Shown here: positions 19,408-24,410 of the stretch, piece by piece
Layout of the letters: every line of letters starts with the position of its first letter
Numbering within the stretch: the first letter of the stretch is position 1
Source: Bacteroidales bacterium
GTDB lineage: Bacteria > Bacteroidota > Bacteroidia > Bacteroidales > UBA932
Assembly: GCA_017616655.1 (NCBI GenBank)
Contig: JAFZXU010000015.1
Coordinates: 1-32,653, forward strand
Direction: 5' to 3'
DNA: 32,653 nucleotides
Made by a program: the position numbers and the translations under genes
The notes under the pieces: generated by a model
Seen by the model: the letters and a program-made list of their open reading frames with translations, nothing else
Database searches by the model: none
Told to the model about the DNA's origin: nothing

Positions 19408-19555
19408 AAAAATCGGCGGTGTCTGTTTCGTAGTCATAAGCACCCACGCTTCCCCGATAGGCAAATATGAATTAAAGCTCCCGGCGAGCCGGGAGGGGCC
19501 CGCTTGCGGGAGGGCGAGCGAAGCGAGGACGGAGAAACAGATACCGCCGATTTTT
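19408..19555. repeat. palindromic element, copy 1 (intergenic)
   Basis: Arms 19408-19429 and 19534-19555 are inverted repeats of 22 bp with one G-T pair, enclosing 104 bases. The left arm begins with A5 and the right arm ends in a T-run to 19556, so a folded transcript would have a U-run in either direction. Inside are a perfect 8-bp hairpin (CTCCCGGC / GCCGGGAG, 19479-19496) and a core at 19491-19533. The core begins GGGAGGGGCCCGC and has a CCCGC-TT-GCGGG hairpin. The core start and length are shared with copy 2; the arms are not clearly shared. No protein-coding frame is convincing here. Confidence 0.8.
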
Positions 19556-22137: not shown

Positions 22138-22995
22138 TTATTCTATCACCAGTCCGTCATAGGCCGGATGGACGTGCTCCGGCAGCTGGCGGTCGAAATC
22201 GGCGTGGGCCGGCAGGAGGTGCGAGATGTGCGTGATGTACGATTCCTGCGCTCCCACGCGTTCAAAGAACTCGAGGCATTCGTCCAGAGAGAAGTGAGAG
22301 TGGTGAGGCCCCGGCTTGACGCAATTCAGCGTTACGGCGCGCAGGCCCTTGAGCTTCTCGAACTCCGGCTCCTCGATGAGGTTCATATCGGTAAGATAGG
22401 CTATGTCTCCAAAACGGTAGCCCAGCACGGACAGCTTCTTTACCTTATGGTGCCAGCCCTGGATGGGAATTACCTCCACGCTTGCGCCCTCCTTGCCGGA
22501 TGCGCCGAGGTGCCTGTATCCGAAGCCCTTTTCCCACTGCAGCACCTCGTCGCCGGCATTGGAAACAACCTTGAACGGTTTGCTGCCGTCGATGGTATGC
22601 ATATGCCATTCAGGCGAGCCGGGATACTTGGGGTCGGCAAAAGCGTAGGCGTACATATGGCGCAGGGAATCCTCTACGTAAGGCTCGCAGTAGATGTTAA
22701 CGGGGCGGCTTTCGCAAAGGTTGAGCGCACGGGTGTCGTCCAGCCCGCCGGTGTGGTCCATATGGTTGTGGGTCAGCAGGATGGCATCGAGGTGCGTGAT
22801 TCCGGCACGGATTGCCTGATAGCGGAAATCAGGCCCGCAGTCGATAAGGATGGTAAGCCCGCCGTATTCTGCCAGTGCAGAGGCGCGGAGCCTCCTGTCC
22901 CGAGGGTCGGCAGATTTGCAGACGGGGCAGTTGCAACCTATCATCGGCACGCCGGAAGACGTGCCCGATCCGAGTATGGTCAGCTTTGCTTTCAT
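22138..22995 (-). CDS. PhnP-like metallo-beta-lactamase-fold phosphodiesterase
   Basis: The 285-residue protein begins MKAKLTILGSGTSSGVPMIG and has the metal site H76-x-H78-x-D80-H81 (LLTHNHMDH). It has a second zinc site, C21-x-C23-x2-C26, at the same positions as the structural zinc of E. coli PhnP, which acts on cyclic phosphodiesters. Later ligands lie in GWHHKV, YLTDM and HISH. No phosphonate genes are nearby, so the natural substrate is unknown. Start 22995 is chosen because it overlaps the mtaB stop (ATGA); the frame opens 9 codons earlier. Confidence 0.88.
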   Translation of the reverse strand: MKAKLTILGSGTSSGVPMIGCNCPVCKSADPRDRRLRASALAEYGGLTILIDCGPDFRYQAIRAGITHLDAILLTHNHMDHTGGLDDTRALNLCESRPVNIYCEPYVEDSLRHMYAYAFADPKYPGSPEWHMHTIDGSKPFKVVSNAGDEVLQWEKGFGYRHLGASGKEGASVEVIPIQGWHHKVKKLSVLGYRFGDIAYLTDMNLIEEPEFEKLKGLRAVTLNCVKPGPHHSHFSLDECLEFFERVGAQESYITHISHLLPAHADFDRQLPEHVHPAYDGLVIE

Positions 22996-24410
22996 ATCGT
23001 AACGTCTATTAGCTTTCCGCACAGCTCTGCATCCCAGGGCCTGCGTACGCGGATGTAATTACCTGTATATCCTTCCATCCAGCCGGAACGGTCTGTAGAT
23101 TCGAACAGCACGCGCTCGTGAACCCCGCGGTTGGCCTCTACGAACTCCGAGTGCAGCCGCTCGCAGATGGCCTCCAAAGCCGCCACGCGCTCTTTCTTGA
23201 CCGCCTCAGGCACCTGCCCGGGCATAGACGCCGCCGGCGTTCCGGGACGGCGCGAATAAGGGAAGACGTGGATGAACGCCGGCCGGATGCGCCCGCTCAG
23301 GAACTCGCAGGTGCGGGCAAACAGCTCATCCGTCTCTCCCGGAAGGCCGCACATGACGTCTATGCCAAAGAAGACCAGCGGCTTGCCGGGAGCCTCCATC
23401 GCCCTGCGTATATAGTCTATGCGCGATGCAAACAGCGCAGTGTCGTACTTGCGCCCCATAGCACGCAACATCTCGTCCGTGCCAGTCTGCAGCGGGATAT
23501 GGAAATGGGGCTGGAACTTGGTGCCCGACGCAATCCAGTCGATAATCTCCTCCGTAAGGAGATTCGGTTCGATGCTGGAAATGCGGTACCTCTCTATGCC
23601 GTCCACCTCATTCAGCGCCTGCAGCAGCTGCAGGAACGTCTCTCCCGTGGTGCGCCCGAAATCGCCCGTATTCACCCCCGTAAGCACAATCTCCTTCACC
23701 CCCAGCGCCGCCGCCTTTTTGGCATTGGCCACACACTCCGCAACCGGCACATTCCTGCTCTCCCCCCTTGCATACGGCACCGTACAATACGCACAATAGT
23801 TATTGCACCCGTCCTGCACCTTCAGGAACGACCTCGTCCTCTCCCCACTGCTCCAGGCCGAAAAAACACAATTAGAGTCTATAGCCACCCTCGGATCCTT
23901 GTGGGCTGGTAAGATGATTCCGGCGCCAGATGGTGTTGTCTCCAAATCTGTTGCCACCCTCGGCACCATAAGAGGGAGGGGCCCGCCGCTTGCGGTGGGA
24001 GGGGTCGCGTAGCGACGATTTGGAGACAACACCATCTGGCGCCGCCCCTCAAGAATCGCCAACGTCTCAGATACAACCAGAGACTTCTCGTTGCAACCGA
24101 AAACTCTTGCTACTCCGGGAATGGATTCGTAGTCTGAGCGGCGGAGCTGGGCGCTGCATCCGGTAACTACAACTATGGCCAAGGGATTGACTCGCAGTAC
24201 TTTACGCACAAGGTTGCGGGATTTGGCATCGGAGGTTGCGGTAACGGAACAGGTGTTGACCAGATAGACGTCGGCCTTGTGCGACCACGGCACCACCTCC
24301 AGCCCGGCCTGCACGAAGCCGCGCTCATACGTACTCGTCTCGGCATAGTTCAGCTTGCAGCCGAGCGTGAGAAACGCTATCTTCTTACCGTCACCCTTGC
24401 CCATTCGCAA
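22992..24410 (-). CDS. mtaB: tRNA t6A37 methylthiotransferase MtaB, with an in-frame palindromic element
   Basis: This radical SAM enzyme converts t6A to ms2t6A at position 37 of tRNAs reading ANN codons. The 472-residue protein has the N-terminal cluster cysteines C18 (LGCKLN), C54 (NTCSVT) and C85 (TGCSAQ), the radical SAM triad C202-x3-C206-x2-C209 (GCNNYCAYC), and a TRAM-like C-terminus. Between the UPF0004 and radical SAM domains, residues 123-164 are encoded by a 124-bp palindromic element. A nearby direct repeat, PRVATD (150-155) / PRVAID (173-178), is 69 bases apart. The insert keeps the frame and lies in a linker, so the enzyme may still work. ATG 24404 is an alternative start. It overlaps folB. 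Confidence 0.9.
   Translation of the reverse strand: MRMGKGDGKKIAFLTLGCKLNYAETSTYERGFVQAGLEVVPWSHKADVYLVNTCSVTATSDAKSRNLVRKVLRVNPLAIVVVTGCSAQLRRSDYESIPGVARVFGCNEKSLVVSETLAILEGRRQMVLSPNRRYATPPTASGGPLPLMVPRVATDLETTPSGAGIILPAHKDPRVAIDSNCVFSAWSSGERTRSFLKVQDGCNNYCAYCTVPYARGESRNVPVAECVANAKKAAALGVKEIVLTGVNTGDFGRTTGETFLQLLQALNEVDGIERYRISSIEPNLLTEEIIDWIASGTKFQPHFHIPLQTGTDEMLRAMGRKYDTALFASRIDYIRRAMEAPGKPLVFFGIDVMCGLPGETDELFARTCEFLSGRIRPAFIHVFPYSRRPGTPAASMPGQVPEAVKKERVAALEAICERLHSEFVEANRGVHERVLFESTDRSGWMEGYTGNYIRVRRPWDAELCGKLIDVTI
23878..23963. repeat. imperfect direct repeat in mtaB
   Basis: TCTnnnGCCACCCTCGG occurs at 23878-23894 and 23947-23963, exactly 69 bases (23 codons) apart. The second copy begins at the inner end of the left arm of palindromic element copy 2. 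Beyond these 17 bases the two units differ, so this is not a plain tandem duplication. It may be a trace of how the element arrived. Confidence 0.6.
23921..24044. repeat. palindromic element, copy 2 (in-frame inside mtaB)
   Basis: Arms 23921-23948 and 24017-24044 are perfect 28-bp inverted repeats around 68 bases. The interior holds a core at 23974-24016 that starts with the same 13-mer as copy 1 (GGGAGGGGCCCGC). It folds into CCCGCCGC-TT-GCGGTGGG (one G-T pair) and GTCGC-GTA-GCGAC hairpins. The core is 43 bases from the 13-mer to the right arm, as in copy 1. On the coding strand the arms encode RRQMVLSPN and DLETTPSGA, so the inverted repeat is read in two unrelated peptide frames with no stop codon. 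Confidence 0.9.

Follow-up and report, generated by a model that had tools for sequence, protein, structure and literature searches.

A putative mobile palindromic element with copy-specific arms lies in frame within mtaB and other genes of a Bacteroidales family

The window, by which we mean the whole 32,653-nt stretch of DNA analysed here, carries on its reverse strand the gene mtaB (22992–24410), a 472-aa open frame identified with NCBIfam and Pfam as the tRNA t6A37 methylthiotransferase. Inside this gene lies a palindromic element, delimited by its perfect arms at 23921–24044 on the forward strand and corresponding, on the opposite strand, to MtaB residues 123–164. An inverted-repeat search places the left arm at 23921–23948 and the right arm at 24017–24044 (28 nt each, 100% complementary, spacing 68 nt). 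Between them, a structure counted on 25 copies of the element comprises, all on the forward strand, the core hairpins P2 (23950–23967), P3 (23982–23999) and P4 (24004–24016, with a GTA triloop), together with a pseudoknot in which P2 loop bases 23957–23961 pair with 23972–23976. An earlier note, made from the sequence alone, had described a perfect 28-bp inverted repeat around 68 bases, placed it in the linker between the UPF0004 and radical SAM domains of MtaB, and read it as translated without a stop. At the level of the sequence, each of these points holds: the repeat is found at 23921–24044, the Pfam domains lie on either side of it (UPF0004 at residues 10–103, Radical_SAM at 197–371), so that residues 123–164 are linker, and the 472-aa frame on the minus strand runs through it uninterrupted.

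The host protein scores 368.5 against TIGR01579 (MtaB; cut-off 357.05). When it is compared with the solved MiaB structure 7mjv, residues 6–122 and 188–437 align, and the 65 residues between these blocks stand opposite only 23 in MiaB. An AlphaFold model built with 39 aligned MtaB proteins reaches a mean pLDDT of 85.4, with 316 of 472 residues at 90 or above; residues 128–176 fall below 50 and form no structure. The insert is, on this prediction, most likely a floppy, disordered loop, and, judging by the open frame, some of the element's sequence probably ends up in the protein.

Among inverted repeats of the window whose arms are no more than 200 nt apart, the 28-bp repeat is the longest, whereas the longest repeats in 20 first-order Markov controls measured 10–17 bp. 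Masking it brings up, as the next in length, a 13-bp inverted repeat at 19408–19555 on the forward strand. This is another copy of the element (model match 19415–19551), degenerate but with arms of its own, and it separates genes that by eye resemble those for PEP carboxykinase and a methyltransferase. We therefore take the palindrome in mtaB to be beyond chance, also because its core recurs across the genome bin to which the window belongs.

A DNA search of that bin returned dozens of partial core matches. Alignment shows a shared ~65-nt core, flanked in each copy by two mutually complementary arms whose sequence varies among copies. In alignment A1, which holds 25 of 34 copies (nine were omitted for large loop inserts, truncation or divergence), we scored the arm helix, P2, the pseudoknot from the P2 loop, P3 and P4. 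Paired cells amounted to 88.4%, against 38–48% in slid controls, with two-sided changes at 22/40 pairs; none of 500 shuffles was as high on any of five measures. In the pseudoknot, which is paired in 25/25 copies, two of the five pairs show two-sided changes. The P4 loop, under a loose text test, reads C-GNA-G in 24/25, 13/15 and 14/15 rows of three partly overlapping sets of copies, and loops of this type form unusually stable DNA mini-hairpins. Searching Rfam with 12 loci that contain copies (E ≤10) gave no convincing family. It returned a tRNA in L064, away from the element copy, and a match of MIR856 to the stem of L001 that, at 26.3 against a gathering score of 297, lies far below acceptance; other copies had no notable match. 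As separate observations, L050, L051, L052 and L054 share a near-identical lengthened P3 loop despite differing arms, and a second repeat family apparently sits within the P3 loop of L048 (G000 C59:22392) and within the rewritten interior of L333 (17700–17960).

For genome searches we used a covariance model of the element, R1. The window's bin contains 43 matches. Under stricter filters, 29 of 36 genomes of genus relatives match, with 1–47 copies each, as do 81 genomes in a draw of 199 from the family, representing 11 of 25 genera; the same stricter filters gave no match in 24 genomes taken from the order's other families. All 24 genomes behind the MtaB loci chosen below carry the element, in 8–47 copies. 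Nearly all of these genomes are metagenome bins. The results outline what looks to be a new element family, dispersed in gut and rumen Bacteroidales of this family. The exact 30-nt core pattern had no match in viral contigs, and blastn of one copy (L041) against plasmids and phages had none either. A long, autonomous copy was sought among 101 core motifs in the loci examined: 78 have a complementary arm within 320 nt, 23 are without any, and none has only a distant arm.

Several lines of evidence point to the segment in MtaB being an insertion of this element. First, the genus comparison comprised 30 rows, from 29 relatives and the bin's second MtaB, of which 29 were usable after exclusion of L036; the segment is missing in all 29, and also in the nearest kin of the window's MtaB (L113, L116 and L118). 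It is thus not common to all MtaB homologues, the case that the earlier note had named as speaking against insertion.

Second, the same linker is occupied in other species. An MtaB scan of the named genomes gave 438 relatives, of which the 80 best loci were kept. An R1 match lies in the linker in 14/80 at E ≤1.4e-4, and four weak ones besides (L166, L182, L146 and L161; E 0.006–0.55). All 18 lie within a stop-free spanning frame. The core is oriented as in the window in 13 and reversed in five, and 11 of 15 MtaB inserts stay open when the core is reversed. In the 14 strong inserts and the window, the arms span 26–53 aligned columns, 80–100% of them matched; those of the four weak matches span 7–14 aligned columns only. 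Two sister pairs, L124/L129 (C-terminal parts 94% identical) and L159/L168 (90%), have opposite cores between similar arms. Occupation of this linker in many other species and in both orientations, with arms that vary between copies, goes beyond anything in the earlier note.

Third, insert presence changes repeatedly over the MtaB tree. On a tree of 85 C-terminal parts, with the insert label on 19 rows including the four weak ones, it requires at least 11 changes, 10 of them forced by well supported branches, and the window's MtaB clusters with three genes that have no insert (95/92). The label is also more clustered than in 500 shuffles, and sharing is therefore partly inherited. Within the window's own linker, a 17-nt direct repeat (23878–23894, forward strand; 88% match to 23947–23963) is perhaps the remnant of an older copy, as we read it because L112, which has no R1 match, retains a similar linker peptide.

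The matches at 18/80 MtaB loci, four of them weak, would also be found if the segment were an old native part of MtaB that is palindromic by accident. This reading is already refuted by the relatives that lack the segment, in the genus and among the nearest kin, and it is further opposed by the occurrence of the same element in many other genes and intergenic sites; we give it almost no credence. Two observations stand beside these results. The MtaB linkers of L151, L172, L180 and L187 hold peptides resembling translated copies of other palindromic repeats, perhaps of REP type. In three genus relatives whose MtaB is without the insert, the element occurs no more than about 25 bp from where the mtaB match has its 3′ end (G029 C39:81584–81702, G034 C7:41111–41220 and G007 C114:4097–4211).

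The element also occupies other genes. When the bin's 42 copies besides that in mtaB were checked for spanning frames, three proved to sit inside genes that could be recognised: a class I fumarase (with 254 aa ahead of the insert and 272 behind it), an FHA protein whose contig starts nearby, and a PAP2 phosphatase, where the copy sits behind an apparent signal peptide (by eye). The count of core copies suggested by the earlier note thus runs to dozens, with four of the bin's 43 copies, mtaB included, in frame within recognised genes and most copies elsewhere. In 23/23 other genomes with fumarase hits, the match is split in two around the insert site, and the empty loop was read directly in six of them (a text motif missed the remainder). 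It is for mtaB and fumarase that absence of the insert in relatives is established.

A further 71 match rows, mostly the genomes' best-scoring copies or copies within fetched stretches and hence a non-random sample, include two places in duplicate (L088=L295 and L084=L330). In 24/71 a spanning frame has at least 60 aa on either side, and 13/71 are in recognisable genes. CutC carries a copy at the same place in two species (L087, L313), and TrmB does so in three (L262, L264, L245), one with its core reversed; in RibF and in CarA the copy falls between two domains. TruB, FolC, UvrA, a biotin carrier, a Thump-like protein and a metallo-beta-lactamase-fold protein are further hosts. Twelve of the 13 gene rows were searched with profiles, and each of the twelve passed a curated cut-off at least once; L264 was assigned to TrmB by its likeness to L262. 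One additional row is mtaB again (L240 = L124), and the copy of L337 lies inside what by eye resembles an rRNA methyltransferase gene. Judging by eye, we did not count as gene insertions those frames that fuse adjacent genes or lie antisense (for example, L225 and L088/L295), nor L133, a weak match (E 0.37) inside a real gene.

Could the arrangement be an artefact of assembly? Nearly all the data are metagenome bins, and the MtaB of the window contig is unlike the other one in its bin. The same arrangement, however, recurs with different arms in bins of several different projects, and host genes can be recognised both before and after the insert; we consider an artefact highly improbable. The bin does hold two mtaB genes of different clades, one on C51 (4621–5493) that groups with the genus and that of the window contig, C54, which groups with a clade holding Candidatus Cryptobacteroides; its estimated contamination is 4.6%. 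The window contig may therefore come from another member of the family. The claim of a family-wide element is independent of the contig's origin, because genomes of both sides carry the element.

Cores and arms vary separately. Among four copies (L041–L044), the cores are identical in all six pairs and arm identity is 0.20–0.59 in five of the six; in L058 and L064 the cores are 65% identical and the arms 100% and 93%; and several copies have a common consensus arm with different cores. We also aligned gene-borne copies, in sets A3 and A4. These lean towards the model, because they were fitted to R1 and each has one row in common with A1. Pairing in their arm helix reaches 93%, and 18/19 and 19/19 pairs show two-sided changes. 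G–U pairs occupy 4/285 and 8/285 arm cells in the gene-borne copies and 30/475 in A1. Together, the low G–U content and the two-sided changes point to arm pairing at the level of DNA.

These figures bear on the suggestion that the palindrome is a regulatory RNA structure of mtaB, selected for control of mRNA translation or stability. Such a structure would agree with the strong covariation, with a pseudoknot paired in every A1 copy and with the recurrence of the element in this linker across many species. It fits poorly with the two orientations, 13 and 5 among 18 MtaB inserts, with the many unrelated host genes and the position of most own-bin copies outside recognised genes, and with the scarcity in the arms of G–U pairs, which RNA helices tolerate. 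We judge it improbable. The earlier note had raised the idea that a hairpin in the mRNA could affect translation of mtaB; both orientations, many unrelated genes and few arm G–U pairs leave this idea unsupported as a function, though the hairpin may still have a side effect on translation.

Two closely related genomes, G004 and G033 (95.4% identical over 124 kb), have four copies in common. The orthologous copies keep their arms, one with an arm base pair changed on both sides, and therefore arms can also be inherited, evolving in step. At one intergenic site, G004 has a different palindrome (L306 13557–13626) where G033 has the element (L330 9963–10077). At L302/L333, one arm is common and the opposite side is rewritten, and at another site the right flank is non-homologous. 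No clean filled and empty pair at the nucleotide level was found among the G004/G033 sites.

Such changes could be understood if only the core moves, with insertion fold-back-copying the neighbouring sequence or landing in the tip of a pre-existing palindrome. Identical cores with unrelated arms, the differing palindromes at the L306/L330 site, the one-sided rewriting of L302/L333 and the repeat apparently lodged in the P3 loop of L048 all fit this account, and REPs are reported to lie within palindromes (PMC3733652). Several copies with a common consensus arm and different cores speak against it, as do the G004/G033 orthologues, which keep their arms and include one two-sided change. We hold movement of the core alone to be a minority possibility, to be taken seriously.

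As to what moves the element, Y1_Tnp matches occur in 27/40 genus genomes and 23/24 genomes of the MtaB set, and in a set of 37 genomes copy number correlates with the number of Y1_Tnp matches (rho 0.55). Genome size correlates with both copies (0.48) and Y1 (0.44), and G021, G018 and G065 have no Y1_Tnp match and 27, 11 and 11 copies, respectively. No model match (E ≤1) lies within about 1.5 kb of the bin's five Y1 loci, where a string check was also done. Of six further places, chosen because they seemed close and including C47 of the bin, five have one copy 0.4–2.9 kb away, and none has copies on both sides. The correlation is confounded, and a Y1/RAYT enzyme as the mover is only a suggestion.

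We consider it likely that the palindrome in mtaB, taken as a whole, belongs to a multi-copy palindromic element, non-autonomous and able to insert both between and inside genes. Its three hairpins and pseudoknot form a conserved core between long arms that pair within each copy and differ between copies, and it is found in frame, in either orientation, in many housekeeping genes at places that are empty in relatives. In this explanation, the element would move as folded single-stranded DNA by means of an enzyme supplied in trans; we infer single-strand movement because of the P4 loop type and the family resemblance to REPs. Copies in genes would persist only if they keep the frame open and place their peptide in a tolerant loop or linker, with the host protein continuing to work with some 30–70 extra residues. 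The arms would be kept complementary as DNA, through template switching at the palindrome or fresh synthesis at each insertion, rather than through selection on an RNA helix. Counting against this explanation, neither a clean filled and empty pair at the nucleotide level nor an autonomous copy was seen, three genomes with 11–27 copies have no Y1_Tnp match, the flip test left only 11/15 frames open, and 30/475 arm cells of A1 are G–U.

A bolder version, which we put forward tentatively and think rather less likely than its opposite, is that a pseudoknotted DNA core builds a near-perfect palindrome at each insertion or rewrites its arms in step, flips, and re-enters permissive enzyme loops in frame. 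If true, this would be an undescribed insertion mechanism that turns non-coding mobile DNA into protein in gut bacteria. Rickettsia is the main known source of protein-coding palindromes, to which scattered REP cases from elsewhere can be added; in the present data, such palindromes extend across one gut and rumen Bacteroidales family, in core enzymes and with the same sites used repeatedly. They offer natural replicates for studying how mobile DNA enters proteins, how perfect coding palindromes persist and which loops tolerate insertion, and the gene models of these bins may include translated mobile DNA.

We recognised no earlier report of the R1 element family among the open-licence papers searched. 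Comparison with known systems concerns likeness of behaviour and architecture. REPs, some of which are reported to lie within genes including uvrA and truB (PMC3733652), resemble the element in their many dispersed palindromic copies, and uvrA and truB are also struck in our set. REPs measure 20–40 bp and bear a tetranucleotide tag, whereas the unit here exceeds 100 nt and has no tag or only part of one. REPs with a CGTC tag are reported from Bacteroidetes, with an 8–9-bp stem, a 4–5-nt loop and a terminal tag. Assignment to these was rejected: CGTC occurs at the junction of arm and P4 in 11/25, 7/15 and 7/15 rows (partly overlapping sets), the P4 stem is short with a triloop, and the unit is longer than 100 nt. 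GTAG REPs were set aside because GTAG appears anywhere on the read strand in 3/25, 2/15 and 3/15 rows only, and REPtrons or TIRtrons because no transposase gene is flanked by the element at the Y1 loci examined. MITE copies share terminal inverted repeats; the copies here have no common terminal repeats, the arms being their least conserved part.

Enterobacterial repeats of RU/ERIC type are described as small, MITE-like and providing open frames within annotated genes (PMC2759123); they belong to other bacteria and differ in sequence, and the sections of that description that we draw on mention no copy-specific arms. In the mitochondria of Nematomorpha, long near-perfect inverted repeats lie in coding genes with their arms kept identical, and template switching or repeat conversion has been proposed for them (PMC6649704). 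Those arms encode conserved protein parts and belong to no dispersed family with a common core, whereas the palindrome here is an insert with a conserved core.

The closest parallel is that drawn by the earlier note, with the Rickettsia palindromic elements (RPEs). RPEs are palindromes some 150 bp in length that often lie in frame within protein genes, RPE-1 in truB being one case mentioned (PMC10969869, PMC3733652), and they are reported to lose repeat identity over time (PMC6649704). The comparison holds in the sense of working alike, the likeness being drawn from descriptions of RPEs rather than from their sequences, and Rickettsia belongs to another phylum. Here, too, a palindrome is dispersed in many copies (43 in the bin; arms matched at 28/28 in the window), and copies lie in frame in different genes (4/43 in the bin and 13/71 elsewhere). 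The difference is in the arms, which are 80–100% matched in 15/15 long-armed MtaB inserts despite their variation between species. By analogy, then, the element appears to work like the Rickettsia palindromic elements, and its near-perfect, copy-specific arms would mark a new feature.
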